Assembly (NCBI GenBank): GCA_012026925.1
Contig: VEPJ01000146.1
Coordinates: forward strand, 1-32,308
Origin: Gammaproteobacteria bacterium
GTDB taxonomy: Bacteria; Pseudomonadota; Gammaproteobacteria; Steroidobacterales; Steroidobacteraceae
Direction of reading: 5' to 3'
Length of the DNA stretch: 32,308 nt
Made by a program: the position numbers and the translations under genes. Positions 5,831-22,658 of this stretch are shown here, one piece after another. Below the pieces are notes generated by a model. That model did no database searches and was not told where the DNA came from. It saw only the letters and a program-made list of their open reading frames with translations. Each line of letters starts with the position of its first letter. Position 1 is the first letter of the stretch.

Positions 5831-5929
5831 GCCATCCGGGTCGCGCTGCTCCGGGCAGGATAATTACGTACACGACCGGTGCGGCCGGAGCGGGAGAATC
5901 GATCGCATCGTCGGGACGGAGGACGGGCG

Positions 5930-7096
5930 GTGAGGCTCCGGTGCCGCCGCGCGAGCGGCGCTTGTTGCGTGATTGCGGCGGCAGTCTGGGCGATGGCCCC
6001 GGTCCCCGCGTTTGCGGCGCCGGATCTCGAGCTCAGGAAGTCCGTCAGCGATGCCACACCGGGGCCGGGGCAGCCGGTCGAATTCAAGGTGAGCCTGGGC
6101 AACGTCGGCGCCGACGCAGCCGCCGACGTCGTGGTGCGCGACAAGCTGCCACCGGAACTGGCCATCCCCGCCGGCACGGCCGCGTTCCCGAGCATCGGAT
6201 CCTACGATCCCGTCGCCGGGACGTGGACGGTCGGTACGTTGAACGCCGGCGCGTCGGCGACACTCGTCATCCCTGCGATCGTCACGGCCGCCAACCCGCC
6301 GGCGTGCATCGTCAACGTCGCCACGACCAGCGATCCGGGCGACACGCATCGCAGCAACGACCGTGCGACTGCGGCGGTGCGCCGGAGCGTGACCGATCGC
6401 TGCGCGGACCTCGCGGTGGCGTTCGGTGCCATCGGTTTCCCCGACTGCGGCACGTGGCGGAACCTCGACTTCCAGGTCTCCGTCGGCAACCTCGGACCGG
6501 AGGAAGCACGCGACGTCTTCGTCGACCTGGGCCAGAACCCGGTCCTGGCGCCGAACCTCCGCTTCCAGGACACCCGCTGCAGCGGGACGCGCTGCACGAT
6601 CGCGCTGCTGCCGGCCGGCGCGACGGTGTCGCTGCGCGCGGTCTCGGACCAGTTCGCCAACTCGGTGCAGCAGTCGCTGACGCTCACCGTTTCCGCGTCC
6701 AGCAACGACAGCGACTACGACACCTCGAACAACCAGGCCCGAACCACCGTGGTCGTCCCGCCATTCACGGCGTGCCAGGGCACCTTCATCGCGGCCTCCT
6801 GCTTCATCGCCACGGCAGCCTACGGGTCCCCGCTCGAGCCGCACGTCGCCGCCCTGCGCGAGTTCCGCGACCGCTACCTGCAGCGAAACGCGCTCGGGCG
6901 GGCGTTCATCCGCTTCTATTACCGCCACTCGCCGCCGCTCGCCGCAGTCATCGCGGCGCATCCCTCGCTGCGCCTCGCGACACGATGGGTCCTGACGCCG
7001 CTCGTGCTTGCCATCGAGTATCCGCTGCGGACACTGGCGTTCGTGCTGCTCGCGCTGCTGTCCGTCGTCGGGTGGCGACTGCACTTCCGGCGCTGA
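5930..7096 (+). CDS. Exported DUF11-domain protein with C-terminal CFI-box ([10 protein letters not shown]) segment
   Basis: GTG start gives a signal peptide ending [12 protein letters not shown]11-like repeats; [28 protein letters not shown] followed by hydrophobic tail and RLHFRR. Confidence 0.85.
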
Positions 7097-7113
7097 CAGA
7101 CTGGAGTCTCGAA

Positions 7114-8763
7114 ATGCGACACCCACGACCATTCCGGCCGGCATTCATGGTGGCTGCGGCCACTTGCGGTCTTGCGGCCATCGCGGGTTGCACGAGTCGA
7201 ACGGACGTGGGAGCCACGGGGACCGCGCCTGCCGATGCGACGCACCTGTGGGGCACGGTGCAGGAGGTGTGGTTCGCGACTGCTGCCGAGACGCTGCCCG
7301 ACTCGCAGACCGGATGGACCCGCAGGGCACTGTCGAAACCGGTGGTGCTCGACCTCGCGACGGCATCCTCGAGTACGCTGGTCGCGCTGGGATCGAGCCT
7401 CTCCCTGCCGTCCGGCACCTACAAGCAGATGCACCTCGAGCTGGCGGACTCGTGGGACCGGCTGGTCGGTGCGGCGAGCGACGCCGGACTCGACTACAAC
7501 GCCCAGATCGACCTGGCGGACGGCAGCGGCGCGAAGTCGAGGGCGCGGCTCGAACTCCCGGTGCCGGGTACGGGCCTCACGGTCCCGGTGGACCTGGCGA
7601 TCAGGGACCGCACCGATTCCGGGTCGTCGGGCTCCGGCTCGGCCGCGAATCTGTCGCTGGCCATCACGATCGACGCCGCGCGCGACGTCGTCCGGTACGA
7701 CTACGGCTCGAACAAGGGGTACCTCCTGACGCCCTACGTGTCGGTGGACGACGAGGACAGTTCCGGGACCCTGAAGGGTAGCGTCGATGCGAGCGCGCTT
7801 CCGGCCGGTCACCCGCCGATCACGGTGAGCGCCGAGGTCCGGACGAGTTCCGGCAGTCACCGCGTCGTCGTGCAGCGACGCCAGGTCGCCGCCGACGGCT
7901 CATTCATCCTCTATCCGCTGCCGGGTTCGAAGAGCGGCAAGAAGTACGACGTCGTGATCACCTGCGCCGGTGCGGACACGGTGATCGTCCGGGACGTGCC
8001 CGTCACCGCCGGTTCCGCGGCCAGCCCGACCACGGTGCAATCGACGCCGATCGTCCTGGCGGCTGCGCGGACCGTGTACGCGAACGCGACGACCCAGTCG
8101 CCCGCGCTCCCTGCCGGTACCCGCGTCGAGTTCTACCAGACGCGGCCGGGCAGCGACGGCGTCCCGTACCTGGTCGACGGTACGGCGGTCGACCCGATCT
8201 CGCGGCAACTCCCGCACGACGCGTTCGCACTCGCGGCGGGCTCGCTGGTCGTCGGCACCTACGCGGGCGGCAATACGATTGCATTCGCCACCGAGACGCC
8301 GGCCGAAGGGAGCGGCGGCTACGTCGTCGGTTCGGCGGGCCAGTATCGCTCCGACACACTCGCCAGGAACTCCGTGGACGTCGGCGGCGGCAGCAATCGG
8401 CCGACGATCGTTGCGGTGCCGTATCCTGCGGTCGCCTCGGCGGGCATCTCCGGGACCTTGACCGTCAATGTGCAGGCCCCGGTCGGCCGTTTCGATTCAG
8501 GATTCATCGCGCTGAGTTCCGGCTCGCGCCTCATGGAGACGGCGAGCGTCGGCGCGCTGCTCGAGCGCGGAAGCGGCATCGTCACGATCGCTGGATTGCC
8601 GGCCGGCACCGGGCTGGTGCCCGGTACCGGAGTGCCTTACCGGGTGTCGCTGCGCGCCTGGAACTCGCGCAACGCCGTCACGACGCTCACGGTGGTGAGT
8701 GCTTCGACCAGCGTGGTGCTGGGAGACGTGGGGACCGCGAGCACCGCTCTCGTGGTGCAGTGA
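7114..8763 (+). CDS. DUF4382-like lipoprotein
   Basis: Signal peptide with lipobox LAAIAGC; region GTVQEVWFATAAETLPDSQTGWTRRAL...PSGTYKQMHLEL resembles DUF4382. Confidence 0.75.
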   Translation: MRHPRPFRPAFMVAAATCGLAAIAGCTSRTDVGATGTAPADATHLWGTVQEVWFATAAETLPDSQTGWTRRALSKPVVLDLATASSSTLVALGSSLSLPSGTYKQMHLELADSWDRLVGAASDAGLDYNAQIDLADGSGAKSRARLELPVPGTGLTVPVDLAIRDRTDSGSSGSGSAANLSLAITIDAARDVVRYDYGSNKGYLLTPYVSVDDEDSSGTLKGSVDASALPAGHPPITVSAEVRTSSGSHRVVVQRRQVAADGSFILYPLPGSKSGKKYDVVITCAGADTVIVRDVPVTAGSAASPTTVQSTPIVLAAARTVYANATTQSPALPAGTRVEFYQTRPGSDGVPYLVDGTAVDPISRQLPHDAFALAAGSLVVGTYAGGNTIAFATETPAEGSGGYVVGSAGQYRSDTLARNSVDVGGGSNRPTIVAVPYPAVASAGISGTLTVNVQAPVGRFDSGFIALSSGSRLMETASVGALLERGSGIVTIAGLPAGTGLVPGTGVPYRVSLRAWNSRNAVTTLTVVSASTSVVLGDVGTASTALVVQ

Positions 8764-8782
8764 CAGTCGCTGCGCGCCGTCG

Positions 8783-9280
8783 TCAGTACAAGCGCCCCGC
8801 GCCTGCGTAGCGCTTGCGATACCACTCGTCGTCGAGGCTCGCCATCCGCACCTCGCCGCCCGACTGGGGCGCGTGCACGAACTGGTCGTTGCCTGCGTAG
8901 ATGCCGACGTGACTCACGTCCCGGCCGGACAGCCGGAAGAAGACGAGATCGCCCGGGCGCAGGTCGCCGCGAGTCACGGGTTGTGCGGCTGCGTACTGTT
9001 CCGCCGCGGTGCGCGGCACGCTGATTCCGGCCTGGCGATAGGCGTACGAGACGAGGCCGCTGCAGTCGAATGCGTCGGGCCCGGATCCTCCGTAGCGGTA
9101 GGGCGCGCCGATGCGCGACTCGGCTGCGACCAGCGCCGCCGCACCCGGGGTCCCGGGCATGCCCGCTGTCGTCTCACGCTGGAACGGCGCGCACGCCGCG
9201 AGCAGCGCGGCAAGCACGACGACGGCGGCCGGGCGAGCGGCAATGGGCAATGCAGACAGAGTGTTGCGGGCGGGTGCCAT
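8783..9280 (-). CDS. NlpC/P60 family (C40) peptidoglycan hydrolase, lipoprotein
   Basis: LLAACAPF lipobox; FDCSGLVSYAYRQAG, GDLVFFRLSGRDVSHVGIYAGNDQFVHAP catalytic motifs. Confidence 0.95.
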   Translation of the reverse strand: MAPARNTLSALPIAARPAAVVVLAALLAACAPFQRETTAGMPGTPGAAALVAAESRIGAPYRYGGSGPDAFDCSGLVSYAYRQAGISVPRTAAEQYAAAQPVTRGDLRPGDLVFFRLSGRDVSHVGIYAGNDQFVHAPQSGGEVRMASLDDEWYRKRYAGAGRLY

Positions 9281-9416
9281 GCGCGGAGTCTAGATCCGCA
9301 GCTGCCGCCGGGACATGCAGCGCGTCTCAAAGTCGTGCGCAGGTGGCCCGGATTGCAGGTCCGCTGGGGAGGTGCTGCAATGCCTTCCGGACTTCGGAAC
9401 ACCGGGATTCTCGCGG

Positions 9417-10544
9417 ATGAAGTGGCGTACCTGGGCGGTGCTGGGGGGTGTTGCGGCGGTCGCCGTGGGAGCCACGCTGTGGCTCGGGCGCCCTAAGCCG
9501 ATCACCGTCGATACGGTCGAAGTCACGCGCGGCAAGGTGGATCAGACGGTCACCAACACGCGCGCCGGGACCGTCAAGGCCTGCCAGCGCGCGAAGCTCG
9601 CACCGCAGACCGGCGGGCAGATCGCGCGCCTGCCGGTGAAGAAGGGTGACCGCGTCGAGAAGGGCCAGGTGCTGCTGGAGCTGTGGAACGACGACATCCG
9701 CGCCGAACTCAATCTCGCCGAGCGCGACGCCGCTGCCGCACGGGCCCTCAAGGACGAGGCGTGCATCGCGGCCAAGGTTGCGCGGCGGGAGTCGGACCGC
9801 CTCCAGGGCCTCGTCGACCGCAAGCTCGTCTCGGTCGAGCAGGCCGAGAGCGCGGCGGGCGAGGCGGACAGCCGCGCGGCGGCCTGCCGTGCGGCGACGG
9901 AACAGATACAGGTGAGCCAGGCGCGCATCGACGCGGCTCGCGCCCGGCTCGAGCGGACGATGCTGCGGGCGCCGTTCGCCGGCACGGTGGCCGAGATCAA
10001 CGGCGAGGTGGGTGAGTTCGTGACCCCGTCCCCGGTGGGGATCCCGACGCCGCCGGCCGTGGACGTGGTGGACTCGAGCTGCATCTACATCACCGCGCCG
10101 ATCGACGAGGTGGATGCGCCGAAGGTGCGCCAGGGCATGGCGGCCCGCGTCACGCTCGACGCATTCAAGGATCGCAGTTTCCGGGCGCACGTGCGCCGCA
10201 TCGCTCCCTACGTACTCGAGGTCGAGAAGCAGGCCCGGACCGTCGAGGTCGAAGCCGAGATCGACGAGCGCGACGACGCGGCGCTGCTGCCGGGTTACAG
10301 CGCGGACCTCGAGATCATCATCGCCGAGCGCCCGGACGTGATCCGCGTGCCGACGCGTGCGCTGGTCGAGGGCAGCAAGGTGTACGTCCTCGAAGGCGGG
10401 CGCATCCACGAGCGCAAGGTCACGACCGGCATCGGCAACTGGGAGTACACCGAGGTCACGGAGGGCCTGAAGGCCGGTGACCGGGTCGTGGTCTCGATCG
10501 ATCGCGAGGGCCTCAAGGACGGCGTCGCCGCCGTTTCGTCCTAG
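9417..10544 (+). CDS. HlyD/MacA-like efflux periplasmic adaptor subunit
   Basis: N-terminal TM, lipoyl-like segment, coiled coil, LRAPFAGTVAEINGEVGEFVTP; first gene of ABC efflux cluster. Confidence 0.9.
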   Translation: MKWRTWAVLGGVAAVAVGATLWLGRPKPITVDTVEVTRGKVDQTVTNTRAGTVKACQRAKLAPQTGGQIARLPVKKGDRVEKGQVLLELWNDDIRAELNLAERDAAAARALKDEACIAAKVARRESDRLQGLVDRKLVSVEQAESAAGEADSRAAACRAATEQIQVSQARIDAARARLERTMLRAPFAGTVAEINGEVGEFVTPSPVGIPTPPAVDVVDSSCIYITAPIDEVDAPKVRQGMAARVTLDAFKDRSFRAHVRRIAPYVLEVEKQARTVEVEAEIDERDDAALLPGYSADLEIIIAERPDVIRVPTRALVEGSKVYVLEGGRIHERKVTTGIGNWEYTEVTEGLKAGDRVVVSIDREGLKDGVAAVSS

Positions 10545-10558
10545 CCGCGAGGCGCCGC

Positions 10559-11244
<686 letters not shown>

Positions 11245-11248
<4 letters not shown>

Positions 11249-12456
11249 GATTCGGCGACCTGCTGCACCTGGCGACCGAATCGCTCGTGCGGGCGCGGCT
11301 CAGGAGCATCATGATGCGGCTCGCCATGGCGATCGGCGTCGCCGCGGTGGTCGTGCTCACTTCGCTGGGCGAAGGCGCGCGCCGCTACGTGACCGGCGAA
11401 TTCCAGGCCCTCGGTACGGAGCTCCTCATCGTGCTGCCCGGCCGCTCGGAGACGACCGGCGTGCAGCCGGGCATGTTCGCCGGCGAAACGCCGCGCGACC
11501 TGACGCTCGACGACGCGCGCTCGCTGCTGCGGATCCCGGGTGTCGCGCGCATCGCGCCGCTCGTCATCGGCTCGGTGCCGGTCGCGGCCGGCGAACTCAC
11601 GCGCGAGGTCCCGGTCGTCGGCAGCAACTCGGATTTCCTGGCGGTGCGCAACCTCAGCATGGCGCAGGGATCGTTCCTGCCGCCCGGCGAGCTCGATCGC
11701 GACCTGGCGGTGTGCGTGCTCGGCAGCAAGGTGCGCTCGGAACTCTTCCCGCGCGGGCCGGCGGTCGGCGCGACGGTGCGGATCGGCGACCGGCGCTTCC
11801 GCGTCATCGGCGTGCTCGCCGATACGGGGCGGGCGATCGGCTTCGACCTGCAGGAGCTCGTCATCATCCCGGTGTCGAGCGCGCAGCAGCTCTTCAACAC
11901 CCAGTCGCTGTTCCGGATCATGATCCAGGCCACTTCGCGCGAGGCCATGCCCCGCGTCCGCGAGGCGGTCCGCGCGATGCTCAAGGAGCGTCACCAGGGC
12001 GAGGAGGACGTCACGGTCATCACGCAGGACGCCGTGCTCGCGACGTTCAACCGCATCTTCACCGCACTCACGCTCACGCTTGCCGGCATCGCATCCATCA
12101 GCCTGGCCGTCGCGGGCATCCTGATCATGAACGTCATGCTCGTGGCCGTGAGCCAGCGCACGGCGGAGGTCGGTCTGATGAAGGCCCTCGGTGCGCGGGG
12201 CCGGCAGATCACGGCGATATTCCTGACCGAAGCCGTGCTGCTCTCGATCGTGGGAGCGCTGGGCGGGCTCGTCATCGGCTTCGTCGCCGACGCAATCGTG
12301 TCGCGCTTCTACCCGACGCTGCCGCTCGGTCCGCCGCCGTGGGCCGTGGTGCTCGCCGTGCTGATCGCGGTCGCGAGCGGCGTCGTCTTCGGACTGCTGC
12401 CGGCCCGGCGCGCGGCGCGGCTCGATCCCGTCGTGGCACTGGCCGGGAGGCGCTGA
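11245..12456 (+). CDS. ABC transporter permease, MacB/FtsX type (first paralogue)
   Basis: GTG start overlaps stop of the ATPase gene; MacB-type periplasmic domain and FtsX-like C-terminal TM region. Confidence 0.92.
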
Positions 12457-12459
12457 GCC

Positions 12460-13659
12460 TTGCGCGGTTCCGACATCGTGCGTTTCACGAGCCGGTCGGT
12501 GCTGGCGCATCGCATGCGTGCGGTCCTCACGGCGCTCGGCATCGCGGTCGGCGTCGCGGCGGTCGTGCTGCTCACGTCGATCGGCGAGGGCGTGCGCCGT
12601 TTCGTCATCTCCGAGTTCACGCAGTTCGGCACGAACATCATCAGCGTGAGCCCGGGCACCGCGAAGACCATGGGCGGATCGATCGGGGTGTTCGGCACGG
12701 TCCGGCCGCTCACGATCGACGACGCCGAGGCGCTGAAGCGCGTGCCGTACGTGCTCGACGCCGATCCCCTCGTGCAGGGCAACGCGGAAGTCGAAGGCAA
12801 CGGCCGCAAGCGTCGCGTCACGGTGTACGGCACCGGCCCGATGTTCGCGGAGGCCCTGCGCTTCCCGGTGGGCCAGGGAACCTACCTGCCGCCCGACGAC
12901 CCGCGCGCGCCCCGCGCGTTCGCCGTGCTGGGTTCCAAGATGGCGCACGAGCTGTTCGGCAAGACGAACCCGCTCGGCGCCAGCGTGCGCGTGGGCGGCC
13001 AGCGCTATCGCGTCGTCGGCGTGATGGCGCCGAAAGGAACGATGCTGGGCTTCGACCTCGACGACACGGTCTTCATCCCGGCCGCGAAGACGCTCGAGCT
13101 CTTCGACCGCGACAGCCTCTTCGAGATCGACGTCGTCTACGAGGAGAACGCTCCCGCCCGGGAGGTCGAGGACGGCATCCGGCGCGTGCTCGGGGCGCGC
13201 CACGGCGACGAGGACTTCACCGTCACGCCGCAGCAGCAGATGCTCGACGCGCTGGGCTCGGTCCTGAACGTGCTCACTTTCGCGGTGGGTGCGCTCGGCA
13301 GCATCTCGCTCTTGGTCGGTGCCGTCGGCATCTTCACGATCATGACGATCTCGGTGCGCGAGCGGACCGGCGAGATCGGGCTGTTGCGTGCGCTCGGGGC
13401 GGAGCGCGCGCAGGTACTCCGGCTGTTCCTCGCGGAGGCGGTCGTGTTGTCCGTGCTGGGAGGGCTGGGCGGACTCGCGGCCGGGGGCGGCATCGCATTC
13501 CTGCTGAGCCAGGCCGTGAAGCAGCTGCCCGTGAGCTACTCGCCGCTGTTCATCGGCCTGGCGCTCGGGCTGTCGGCCGTGATCGGCCTCGTCGCTGGCA
13601 TCCTGCCGGCCTTCAATGCGGCGCGACTCGACCCCGTCGAGGCGCTGCGGGCGGAGTAA
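12460..13659 (+). CDS. ABC transporter permease, MacB/FtsX type (second paralogue)
   Basis: TTG start; similar architecture to the preceding permease (GVAAVVLLTSIGEGVRRFV vs GVAAVVVLTSLGEGARRYV). Confidence 0.92.
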   Translation: MRGSDIVRFTSRSVLAHRMRAVLTALGIAVGVAAVVLLTSIGEGVRRFVISEFTQFGTNIISVSPGTAKTMGGSIGVFGTVRPLTIDDAEALKRVPYVLDADPLVQGNAEVEGNGRKRRVTVYGTGPMFAEALRFPVGQGTYLPPDDPRAPRAFAVLGSKMAHELFGKTNPLGASVRVGGQRYRVVGVMAPKGTMLGFDLDDTVFIPAAKTLELFDRDSLFEIDVVYEENAPAREVEDGIRRVLGARHGDEDFTVTPQQQMLDALGSVLNVLTFAVGALGSISLLVGAVGIFTIMTISVRERTGEIGLLRALGAERAQVLRLFLAEAVVLSVLGGLGGLAAGGGIAFLLSQAVKQLPVSYSPLFIGLALGLSAVIGLVAGILPAFNAARLDPVEALRAE

Positions 13660-13665
13660 GCCGGC

Positions 13666-16221
13666 TCAGTCCCCGTCCCTGGGCCGCACGCGCCGCGTCG
13701 CGATCGCCTCGTGCGGGTCTTCCGGCCAGTAGTGCTTCGGGTAGCGGCCCTTCAGCTCCTTGCGCACCTCGTGGTAGCCCCGCGACCAGAAGCTCGCGAG
13801 GTCGCGCGTCACCTGCACCGGGCGGCGGGCCGGCGAAAGCAGTTCCAGCGTCACCGGGACCCGGCCGTCCACCACGCGCGGCGACTCCATGAGGCCGAAG
13901 ACCTCCTGCAGCCGCACGCTGAGGCTCGGACCGCTGCCCGCATAGTCGACCGCGATCCGTGATCCGCTCGGCACCGCGAGGTGAGTCGGTGCGAGTTCAT
14001 CGAGCCGGCGCTGGGCGTTCCAGTCGAGCAGCGAGTGCAGCGCGCCGCGCAGGTCGAGCTTCGCGAGCTGGTCGCGCCGCGTGATGCCGTCGAGCCAGGG
14101 GCCGAGCCACGCGTCGAGCGTGTCGAGCAATGCGGCATCGCCGACGTCCGGCCACTGGCCGCGGCCGCGCGGATCGTGTTCGCGGACCAGCTTCAACCGC
14201 GCGCGCCACTGCTCGAGGTCGCGAGTCCAGGGCAGGCATCCGAGGCCCAGCGAGCGAATGCCGTCGAGCATCGCCGCGGCCGAGGCGTCTGCGGCGACGT
14301 TGCGCAACGGCTCGTCGCGCAGCACGAGGTCGCCGAGCCGGCGCACGCGGCGCGCGGCCACGGATTCCGACCGCGAGTCCCAGCCGACGCTGGAAGATTC
14401 CTCGATCGCAGCGGCAAAGTGCTCCTCGAGCTGGGCCGGGTCGAGCCGTGCGGCCAGCTGGATTCGCGCCTCGCGTTCGCCGGCGTCGAGTGCCGCGACC
14501 ACGATGAACTCGGACCTCGCGAGCGCCGTGGCGTCGGCGAACACCGCGCCCCGTCCGCCGCTCAGGTGATAACGGCCACCGCCTCCTTCGCGGGCCCGGC
14601 CGATGCGATCGGGATACGCGAAGGCAGCCAGCAGACCGGCGGCTTCACCCTCGCCGATCGCGGGGATCGCCGGCGCGGCCCGCCGATCGAGTCGGCCGAG
14701 CTGGCGCTCGACCTGCTGAAGCACGCGCTGGATGCGCCTCACGGCCCCACTGTCGACCTGCATGCCCGCCGGCGGCGCCCGGCCGCGTAGCACGTCGAGA
14801 CGCGCCTGCAGGTCCGGGTCGCGGCCGGGACCGGTCGGGCGCAGCGGATCGCGCTCGGAGAGCAGCGCCGCGATTTCGGCCGCGAGCCGTGCGAGCCCCA
14901 GCGCGCGAGCGCGCAGCACCATGTGGGCCAAACGCGGATGCAGGCCGAGCGCGGCCATATCACGGCCGAGCGGTGTCACTTGCCCGCTTGGGTCGAGCGC
15001 CTCCAGGCGCAACAGCAGGTCGCGCGCCTGCGCGAGCGGCGCCGCAGGCGGAGGATCGAGCCAGGCGAGCGATGCGGGATCGCGACAGCCCCAGCATGCA
15101 AGCTCGAGCGCGAGGGGCGCAAGGTCGGCCTCGAGTATCTCGGCGGGAGCCTGCGGCAGCAACGCCGCTTGCGTCGACTCGCTCCAAAGCCGGTAGCAGG
15201 TGCCGGGTGCGGTGCGGCCGGCGCGTCCGCGTCGCTGGTCGGCCGATGCGCGCGAGATGCGCACCGTCTCGAGCCGGCCCATGCCCGTGGCTGGGTCGAA
15301 TCGCTGGCGTCGCTCCACCCCGGAGTCCACGACGATGCGGACGCCGTCGATGGTGAGGCTGGTCTCCGCGATGTTCGTCGCCACGACGACCTTGCGTCGT
15401 CCGCGTGGATCGGGGCGGAGCGCCAGGTCCTGCTCCGCGGCCGCCAGCTCCCCGTAGAGTGGCAGGAGGCTGAACTCGCGGGCGTCGAGACTTGCCGCCA
15501 GTCCTTCCACCACGCGGCGGATCTCACCCGCGCCCGGCAGGAAGAGCAGTGCGTCACCTTCGTGCTCGTGCAGGGCGCGCAACGTGGCGGAGACGACCGG
15601 GCCTTCGATGCGCGTCCGTCGTCCGTCATCGCTCCGCGGCTGCGGCAGGTAGTGCGTTTCTACGTCGAACATGCGGCCCGGGGAGCGCACCGCGACCGCG
15701 TCGTCGAGCAGCCGCAGCAGCGCTTCGCCGTCCAGCGTCGCCGACATCACGAGCATCCGCAGCGTATCGCGCAGGTGCCGCTGGCTCTCGAGACAGAGCG
15801 CCAGGCCGAGGTCGCCCTGCAGGTTGCGCTCGTGGAACTCGTCGAACACGACGCACGCGGTGCCGTCCAGCGCGGGGTCGTGCTGCAGCATGCGGGTGAG
15901 GATGCCCTCGGTGACCACCTCGACCCGCGTGCGCGGCCCCACTCGCGTTTCGAGCCGCGTGCGAAAGCCCACGGTCTGCCCGGTGTCCTCCCCGAGCAAC
16001 CGGGCCATGCGCTCGGCCACGGCCCGGGCGGCGATGCGTCGCGGCTCGAGCATCAGGATGCGGCCGTCCTGGCGCCACCCGGCCTCGAGCAGGGCCAGCG
16101 GAACCACGGTGCTCTTGCCGGCGCCCGGCGGAGCCTCGAGCAGCACGTTGCGGTGCGTGGACAGCGCTTCGTGGAGCGCCGGCAACGCCGCGAGGATCGG
16201 CAACTCGGGGAGTCGAGGCAT
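13666..16221 (-). CDS. hrpB: ATP-dependent helicase HrpB
   Basis: 851 aa; LEAPPGAGKSTVVPLALL, VFDEFHERNLQGDLGLAL, ATNIAETSLTIDGVRIVVDSGVER, QRRGRAGRTAPGTCYRLW. Confidence 0.95.
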   Translation of the reverse strand: MPRLPELPILAALPALHEALSTHRNVLLEAPPGAGKSTVVPLALLEAGWRQDGRILMLEPRRIAARAVAERMARLLGEDTGQTVGFRTRLETRVGPRTRVEVVTEGILTRMLQHDPALDGTACVVFDEFHERNLQGDLGLALCLESQRHLRDTLRMLVMSATLDGEALLRLLDDAVAVRSPGRMFDVETHYLPQPRSDDGRRTRIEGPVVSATLRALHEHEGDALLFLPGAGEIRRVVEGLAASLDAREFSLLPLYGELAAAEQDLALRPDPRGRRKVVVATNIAETSLTIDGVRIVVDSGVERRQRFDPATGMGRLETVRISRASADQRRGRAGRTAPGTCYRLWSESTQAALLPQAPAEILEADLAPLALELACWGCRDPASLAWLDPPPAAPLAQARDLLLRLEALDPSGQVTPLGRDMAALGLHPRLAHMVLRARALGLARLAAEIAALLSERDPLRPTGPGRDPDLQARLDVLRGRAPPAGMQVDSGAVRRIQRVLQQVERQLGRLDRRAAPAIPAIGEGEAAGLLAAFAYPDRIGRAREGGGGRYHLSGGRGAVFADATALARSEFIVVAALDAGEREARIQLAARLDPAQLEEHFAAAIEESSSVGWDSRSESVAARRVRRLGDLVLRDEPLRNVAADASAAAMLDGIRSLGLGCLPWTRDLEQWRARLKLVREHDPRGRGQWPDVGDAALLDTLDAWLGPWLDGITRRDQLAKLDLRGALHSLLDWNAQRRLDELAPTHLAVPSGSRIAVDYAGSGPSLSVRLQEVFGLMESPRVVDGRVPVTLELLSPARRPVQVTRDLASFWSRGYHEVRKELKGRYPKHYWPEDPHEAIATRRVRPRDGD

Positions 16222-21409: not shown

Positions 21410-21840
21410 GTACCACTCCCGTCCCGCCGATCGCGCCCGTCCGGCCACGTCGACCGTGGCGGTGGTACGTGGTGGGCTTCCTGTCGGCGGTGGTGCTGCT
21501 CGTCGTCCTGTACACGACGTTCATGCTCCGGTGGAGCTACTCGCAGGGTGAGCGCGCCGGCGTCCTGCAGAAGTTCTCGGAGAAGGGCTGGATCTGCAAG
21601 ACGCACGAAGGCGAGCTGGCGATGTACGTGGTGGCCGGCGTGGCGCCGACTATCTGGAATTTCAGCGTCCGCGACCAGGGCACGGCCGAGGCGCTGAGCA
21701 GGGCCGTCGGCCAGCACGTGCGGGTGCACTATTCGGAGCACCCCGGCCTGCCCACCCGCTGCTTCGGCGAGACCGCCTACTTCGTCGACCGCGTGGAGGT
21801 CACGCCGGCGCCCCAGCTGCAGTTGCAGCCCGCGCCCTAG
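21406..21840 (+). CDS. Small single-TM protein of unknown function
   Basis: ATGA overlap with PLD gene; TM segment WYVVGFLSAVVLLVVLYTTFML then soluble domain. Confidence 0.8.
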   Translation: MSTTPVPPIAPVRPRRPWRWYVVGFLSAVVLLVVLYTTFMLRWSYSQGERAGVLQKFSEKGWICKTHEGELAMYVVAGVAPTIWNFSVRDQGTAEALSRAVGQHVRVHYSEHPGLPTRCFGETAYFVDRVEVTPAPQLQLQPAP

Positions 21841-22658
21841 CGCTCTTCGTCGACCTTCACCCAGGCGGAGTACTGCGAGCTGCCGGTGCGGCGGCCCCAC
21901 ACCAGCAGCCCGCTGCTCGAGCCCGAACTCGATTCCTGCACGGCACCGAGTTCGATCCATTCGCCGAGCCTGCCGGTCACCACCGAGGTCGCGCCGCGGG
22001 TCTCGATGGTGCCGCCGTTCGCGGGCCGGTATTGCTGCTGGCGCGGCGAGATCTCGAGCGTGACGAGATCGCCGTTCACGCGGGCCGTCGCGTAGAAGCC
22101 CGTGTCGACGTCGCGATAGGTGGTGGACTGTCGCACCGTACCTCCCCAGCCGTTGGTCACGACCTGGGTCGACGTGATCGGCACCGACTGCCCGATCGCG
22201 ATGTAGGTCTCGCTGCCTTCGAGCGTGCGCACGCTGCTCTGGTTGCGCAGGTTGGCCTGCTGCCGGCGGCCCTGCATGCTCACCTGCGCGCCGGCCTGCG
22301 GAGCGGGCGGACGATTCACGCCCACCTGCACGTCGCCGCCGCCGATCGTGGCGGAGCCCCGGACGCTCGCTGCGTCGAGATCCGAGACCGTGCCCTGGCC
22401 GACGGTGATGAGCAGCTGGCGCCGCGGGCGATCGATGGCTGCAACGGCAGTCCGGATCTGCTCGAGATTGGACGGCGTCGTGCGCACCAGCAGCTTGTCG
22501 TCGAGTCCGCTCACCACGCCACCCGGCGCGACGAGCGGCTGCACGATCGGCAGGACCTCGTCGGCGCGACGATAGTGCAGGTCGATGACCTGAAGTTCCT
22601 GGCCGAAGGCGGCGGACGCGGTGAGCAGGGCCAAGGGCGCCCAGAAGAAGCGTGTCAT
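21837..22658 (-). CDS. Secretin-like protein (N-domain plus partial secretin-like region), short
   Basis: Signal peptide; LQVIDLHYRRADEVLPIVQPLVAPGGVVSGLDDKLLVRTTPSNLEQIRTAVAAIDRPRRQLLITV is a secretin N-domain pattern. Confidence 0.8.
   Translation of the reverse strand: MTRFFWAPLALLTASAAFGQELQVIDLHYRRADEVLPIVQPLVAPGGVVSGLDDKLLVRTTPSNLEQIRTAVAAIDRPRRQLLITVGQGTVSDLDAASVRGSATIGGGDVQVGVNRPPAPQAGAQVSMQGRRQQANLRNQSSVRTLEGSETYIAIGQSVPITSTQVVTNGWGGTVRQSTTYRDVDTGFYATARVNGDLVTLEISPRQQQYRPANGGTIETRGATSVVTGRLGEWIELGAVQESSSGSSSGLLVWGRRTGSSQYSAWVKVDEER

Follow-up and report, generated by a model that had tools for sequence, protein, structure and literature searches.

Tripartite sorting signals, such as LPXTG, PEP-CTERM, GlyGly-CTERM and MYXO-CTERM, carry a short motif right before a transmembrane (TM) helix, which is in turn followed by basic residues. 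The motif of MYXO-CTERM contains an invariant Cys, and the exported proteins that bear it finish in an Arg-rich end (PMC11980579). GlyGly-CTERM is paired with rhombosortase and PEP-CTERM with exosortase, and for signals that have only one target per genome a heuristic is available, namely to look for the enzyme adjacent to the lone target gene (PMC3237569). It is against this background that the term ‘CFI-box-CTERM’ has to be read, since it is a genome-annotation name which, by analogy with other CTERM names, invites a sorting-tag reading. A literature search found no paper on the CFI-box domain.

The gene considered here lies in a window (the whole stretch of DNA that was analysed) of 32,308 nucleotides, contig VEPJ01000146.1 of a gammaproteobacterium in the Steroidobacteraceae. 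A first-pass annotation had described its product as an exported DUF11 protein and had implied that the CFI box at its end might be a processing or anchoring tag awaiting an enzyme. The description holds, as set out below; the tag reading fares badly, in that the same domain, Cys included, ends cytoplasmic-type proteins. It now appears probable, if not firmly so, that the CFI region is an autonomous C-terminal four-helix interaction module rather than a sorting signal, to which the exported members add a stop-transfer anchor.

The gene at 5930–7096 and its surroundings

The coding sequence runs on the forward strand from 5930 to 7096 (388 amino acids), with a GTG start at either 5879 or 5930 and a TGA stop at 7094–7096, and specifies an exported DUF11 protein whose CFI-box domain is followed at the C-terminus by a TM helix and a basic tail. 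Its first 30 residues (5930–6019, forward strand; hydrophobic-stretch score 2.28) read as a typical Sec signal peptide. The ectodomain that follows matches DUF11 in two stretches (PF01345, E = 1.4e-32, 112.8 bits against a gathering score of 24.6), the better of which spans residues 32–150 (6023–6379) and was also matched by TIGR01451 B_ant_repeat; the second DUF11-like repeat, with approximate boundaries drawn by eye, would occupy 6410–6770. The CFI box itself, a stretch of 10 residues at 6800–6829 whose invariant Cys is encoded at 6800–6802, opens a module of ~74–75 residues (6800–7021), as delimited both by an AlphaFold2 model and by a match to profile A5. The NCBIfam model NF041770 (CFI_box_CTERM) aligns to residues 291–359 over its positions 1–69 of 69 (E = 4.2e-31), and because the score of 106.6 bits stands against a curated cut-off of 40, a chance match is excluded. 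Only 98 residues separate the Cys from the C-terminal end; in other words, the NF041770 domain sits at the C-terminus.

AlphaFold2 predicts five helices in this region (mean pLDDT 86.6). Four belong to the module, at 6806–6823, 6839–6880, 6890–6958 and 6962–7018 (residues 3–8, 14–27, 31–53 and 55–73, numbered from the Cys), and the fifth is the C-terminal TM helix at 7022–7090 (residues 75–97; model helix 85–107), called also from hydropathy; the last residues of the basic tail, WRLHFRR, come after it. Two hinge prolines, P67 and P75, sit where this TM helix begins. On this evidence, what was first noticed in the letters of the sequence, a helical region that gives way to a hydrophobic segment and then to a basic C-terminus, is real.

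Upstream of the gene are a DUF294/CBS protein and a DnaQ-like exonuclease, and downstream a DUF4382 lipoprotein (7114–8763, forward strand; Pfam), an RND-type adaptor, two MacB-type permeases and HrpB. These neighbours, identified by Pfam and NCBIfam, confirm the earlier remark that no sorting enzyme is adjacent, and there is no evidence that the DUF4382 lipoprotein acts with the CFI protein. The source genome is a 3.1 Mb draft, 72% complete, in which another DUF11 plus CFI-box gene (L001) is found elsewhere. In the sister genome G007 (L215) only ~0.8 kb lies between the exonuclease and hrpB; a stretch of ~7.8 kb (window 5831–13681), comprising the CFI gene, the lipoprotein, the adaptor and the two permeases, is missing there, and is therefore an accessory gene block. 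Farther along the window, the reverse strand at 21837–22658 encodes a protein of ~273 amino acids with Secretin_N and Secretin matches, shorter than a usual secretin.

One module in exported and cytoplasmic-type proteins

The CFI domain is present in 16 of 118 related genomes, in one to three copies each, as well as in 34 of 321 genomes of a wider class sample and 15 of 300 of a phylum sample around a Desulfoscipio-labelled metagenome-assembled genome; many of the loci are from metagenome-assembled genomes. The anatomy of the exported clade was drawn from 107 distinct tails, taken from 80 collection loci and from relatives, where the collection scan had been seeded with CFIATAAY, such that the conservation of the box is inflated in the collection set. 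With topology called from hydropathy and sequence reading, a signal peptide and a varied ectodomain come first in the plan, then often a Gly/Ser-rich linker, after which the Cys and helical region lead to a TM helix and a basic end. The distance from the Cys to the C-terminus is near-fixed (median 101 residues in the 107 tails), and a linker of at least 60% Gly plus Ser precedes the Cys in 60 of them, the window protein being among those without such a linker. About 16 of the 107 have an N-terminal lipobox, and the segment after the TM helix is net positive in 96% of 136 TM-tailed exported members.

Several of these genes have distinctive surroundings. Two stand within T2SS operons, one between gspF-like and pseudopilin genes (L037) and the other before gspC/D/E-like genes (L090), and in Geobacterales CFI genes lie closely downstream of pilMNOPQ (L022, L029, L042, L058, L063, L075, L081 and L082). 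A type IV prepilin-like protein (PF07963; L184:427–1311, forward strand) ends in a CFI box, a TM helix and RRRRL, and its gene adjoins another pseudopilin gene and a prepilin-peptidase-like gene; a similar gene in a second genome (L185, 9837–10475, reverse strand) is interrupted by the contig end.

The module is not, however, limited to exported proteins. When that of the window protein was compared by tblastn with plasmids and phages, matches were obtained in proteins annotated as cold-shock, CAP and calcium-binding, from haloarchaea, Bacteroidota, Cyanobacteria, Bacillota and a Clostridioides phage. Architectures with neither a signal peptide nor a TM helix after the box place the CFI module behind a CSD plus zinc ribbon, a TPR region, a zinc ribbon, an Mrr nuclease plus WYL, an STK_OB kinase, or a short Cas4-like N-terminal part encoded beside PD-(D/E)XK or Cas4 genes. 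Overall, these cytoplasmic-type proteins score 52–90 bits with NF041770, above its own cut-off of 40: 86.8 and 90.2 bits for CSD plus zinc ribbon, 85.2 for a phage zinc-ribbon protein, 84.4 for Mrr nuclease plus WYL, 74.1 for a Cas4-neighbour protein, 64.5 for a Sel1 protein beside dynamins and 52–54.5 for the kinases. Kinases with treble-clef fingers end in a divergent subtype (CFITT..C...GK.DD..EL), seen in L135, L136 and, on sequence similarity, L200; the L197 kinase, the L196 Sel1 protein and the L199 phage protein end in it too. Moreover, the module occurs in RTX-type proteins of Paracoccus that have no obvious link to a membrane. Viral contigs yielded no relatives when searched with the exported-clade alignment, and 8 loci when searched with a phage sequence.

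Some of these loci merit separate description. One CFI-ended kinase adjoins VWA and PP2C genes in a TerY-P-like triad (L197:1263–5604), and another matches the PADLOC STK_OB model at 2e-104 (L109:1297–3231). On an E. coli plasmid the CFI-ended Sel1-repeat protein follows two dynamin-family genes (L196:1–4315), and in a podovirus a protein encoded between the portal and capsid genes finishes in a Gly-rich linker and the divergent module (L199:412–3396). Plasmid proteins of ~140 amino acids (L105, L110, L112, L113 and L115) join a short N-terminal part, Cas4-like by eye, to the CFI module, with a PD-(D/E)XK or Cas4-like gene beside or near it at L110, L112 and L113. Distant relatives in two gammaproteobacterial genomes (L190–L195) keep a Cys and an LR.FRD..L...G...YY core; in G652 and G537, secreted M4 peptidases, amidases and others (L190–L192, L194, L195) end in such a Cys-containing relative of ~130 amino acids with no TM helix, possibly an undescribed C-terminal domain.

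What is common to the two groups, and what separates them, can be stated with some precision. Of 100 complete TM-tailed members, 89 also have a signal-like N-terminus; among 23 members that lack the tail, a single one does (hydropathy; Fisher 3e-15). C1, R23, D24 and Y40 are 100% conserved in both groups, under a filter in which the profile match had to start at the box, so that Cys-less variants could have dropped out. P67, in contrast, is present in 99% of TM-tailed members and 13% of those without the tail, and P75 in 87% and 22%, respectively; the two prolines mark the TM-tailed, exported clade. A tree, unrooted, built on a short alignment and with few nodes resolved, groups almost every TM-tailed member in a single clade (SH-aLRT 97); the cytoplasmic forms mostly branch off elsewhere and are long-branched. 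Within the genus, the window protein, its paralogue L001 and L006 share 73–81% identity in the module, 45–55% in the ectodomain and 30–50% in the TM helix and tail. Since identity is highest in the module and lowest in the TM and tail, the module, and not the TM helix, is the constrained unit; selection acts on this unit, and the TM behaves as an exchangeable anchor.

In the AlphaFold2 model of a phage cytosolic module (pLDDT 90.3), helices are placed at residues 2–8, 14–25, 31–53 and 55–73, such that the window and phage modules are predicted to share the same four helices with nearly equal boundaries. Sequence searches of the PDB gave only weak chance matches to isochorismatases, and among solved folds none matched either model. 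Foldseek against a viral structure library returned, for the cytosolic model, one predicted structure, A0A6J5QZ65, that bears the name of an intramolecular chaperone auto-processing protein; the alignment reaches a TM-score of 0.68 at probability 0.99, yet with E = 0.26 it is non-significant and suggests no more than a lead.

An interaction module or a signal for processing

Within the window protein, the CFI module stands between a Sec-exported, Ig-like DUF11 ectodomain and a plain C-terminal stop-transfer helix. From this arrangement we infer that the mature protein is left uncleaved in the inner membrane, its ectodomain and module facing the periplasm and its basic tail lying on the cytoplasmic side. 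The module would then most likely work through protein–protein interaction or self-association, a role that is favoured because the same module ends kinases, nucleic-acid-binding, TPR/Sel1, phage and RTX-type proteins. Indeed, the diversity of its soluble, phage and RTX-type partners would favour interaction over membrane docking. It is conceivable, though rather unlikely, that the module does one conserved biochemical job at its Cys and Arg/Asp/Tyr residues independently of compartment, be it through a common partner, a ligand or Cys chemistry, and, with the same reserve, that this job spans cytoplasmic defence-like kinases and nucleases, phage proteins and envelope proteins. Against the module reading are the sorting-tag-like features of the exported clade, namely the Gly/Ser linker, the near-fixed distance to the C-terminus and the TM helix with its basic tail, together with the T2SS-operon and pilMNOPQ neighbours and the lipobox-bearing and prepilin members, in which a permanent C-terminal TM helix is awkward. 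The oddity of a TM helix on these last members may allow for processing of some exported proteins.

The principal alternative, which we consider unlikely, is that the CFI segment of the exported clade is a sorting signal after all, cleaved at the Cys or at the pre-TM hinge by an intramembrane or periplasmic enzyme acting in trans, with surface display as its outcome, possibly through the T2SS, in the manner of MYXO-CTERM or GlyGly-CTERM. Its attraction lies in the tripartite look of invariant Cys, TM helix and Arg-rich tail that recalls MYXO-CTERM (PMC11980579), in the Gly-rich linker and a P67/P75 hinge specific to the exported clade, and in the T2SS, pilMNOPQ, lipobox and prepilin cases described above. 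Set against these, ~66 residues of predicted folded domain intervene between the Cys and the TM helix, and conservation is lowest in the TM and tail. Moreover, cytoplasmic-type proteins conserve the Cys and core just as strictly, which makes a Cys-directed extracytoplasmic enzyme hard to credit. The segment is thus probably not the signal of a hidden sorting enzyme, because proteins that stay within the cell possess a folded helical module of the same kind.

Nor do candidate enzymes track with the domain. Profiling of CFI-box presence against such candidates, which had been proposed as a check, was made over the 118 related genomes and for named families only. Exosortase occurs in 7 of the 16 genomes with the CFI domain and 46 of the 102 without (p = 1), rhombosortase in 12 and 72 (p = 1) and GspD in 13 and 89 (p = 0.45), respectively. 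The GspD/T2SS comparison is low in power because nearly all relatives (115 of 118) have a secretin match; in G083, which does carry the CFI domain, GspD gave no match whatever. The source genome, 72% complete, yielded no exosortase. An association with exosortase or rhombosortase was accordingly rejected.

Gene neighbourhoods tell much the same story. No recurrent enzyme was seen beside CFI genes across 80 loci; clustering of 1182 neighbour genes from 101 loci revealed recurrence only within lineages (e.g. pilMNOPQ in Geobacterales) and single T2SS-operon cases, and in a Pfam tally of 172 non-redundant neighbours no family exceeded three members in either half. The one-target-per-genome heuristic (PMC3237569), applied to 24 single-copy loci, gave no shared adjacent enzyme; these loci are from Gammaproteobacteria, and because some of the genomes are incomplete a second CFI copy may have been missed. 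Between them, the 80 loci and the 24 single-copy loci led to a dedicated neighbouring enzyme being rejected. The sole recurrent direct neighbour at the single-copy loci is an outer-membrane barrel-like protein (PF13505, above its gathering score in one of three such proteins scanned). At L228, L233, L234, L235 and L237, in three gammaproteobacterial families, a beta-helix plus CFI protein is paired with an adjacent PF13505-like barrel, and the two could possibly form an envelope-spanning pair.

Membrane docking, likewise an unlikely reading, would have amphipathic, basic CFI helices bind the membrane from either side, with the TM helix as a reinforcement in exported members. The mean net charge from residue 53 on, +3.5 in members that lack the TM tail, would fit, as would the direct run of the module into the TM helix in the window model and the RRRR that precedes the TM helix of the haloarchaeal L114, suggesting the opposite orientation; amphipathic helices are, however, to be expected of any small helical bundle, and the RTX-type Paracoccus proteins and the phage protein L199 show no obvious ties to a membrane. 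Least probable by far is a reactive centre formed by the Cys with Arg20, Arg23, Asp24 and Tyr40, that would serve self-cleavage or covalent attachment whatever the compartment, for while the Cys and polar residues are invariant in all groups and the weak viral Foldseek match bears an auto-processing name, the residue before the Cys varies (G 71, S 6, K 5, A 5, others; n = 107) and no catalytic His or Ser is apparent among the residues invariant in both groups.

For the favoured interaction module there are practical consequences. The Cys and helical core can be studied as a soluble, foldable unit, expressible from small cytoplasmic or phage members, and the question of processing belongs instead to the P67/P75 hinge and TM helix of the exported clade. 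By the same token, a CFI-box annotation alone is an unsafe basis for predicting surface localisation.

Comparison with described C-terminal signals

The CFI segment resembles the tripartite signals as a class in its TM helix and the basic residues that follow. It differs from them in having no short motif right before the TM, the Cys box being separated from it by the predicted four-helix module, in its occurrence beyond exported proteins, and in showing neither joint presence and absence with the known enzymes examined nor an adjacent enzyme at single-target loci. The likeness to MYXO-CTERM extends to the invariant Cys and the Arg-rich end on exported proteins, whereas the Cys motif of MYXO-CTERM directly precedes its TM helix (PMC11980579), where CFI has a folded module that is found in cytoplasmic-type proteins too. 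GlyGly-CTERM is similar in its C-terminal position, its TM helix and basic residues, and in the low-complexity linker that many CFI relatives also have (PMC3237569); unlike it, CFI does not co-occur with rhombosortase and lacks it as a neighbour in single-copy genomes. PEP-CTERM likewise ends exported proteins with a TM helix and a basic end, but the window protein has no PEP motif, and exosortase is unassociated among the relatives.

The ectodomain of the window protein, for its part, is built of the DUF11 (PF01345) repeats of surface proteins. With respect to NF041770, the window gene shows no departure from the described family, which it matches over the full length, at the C-terminus, with the box and the helices that follow. 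It is the family as sampled here that is broader than its CTERM name suggests, since it includes cytoplasmic-type proteins.
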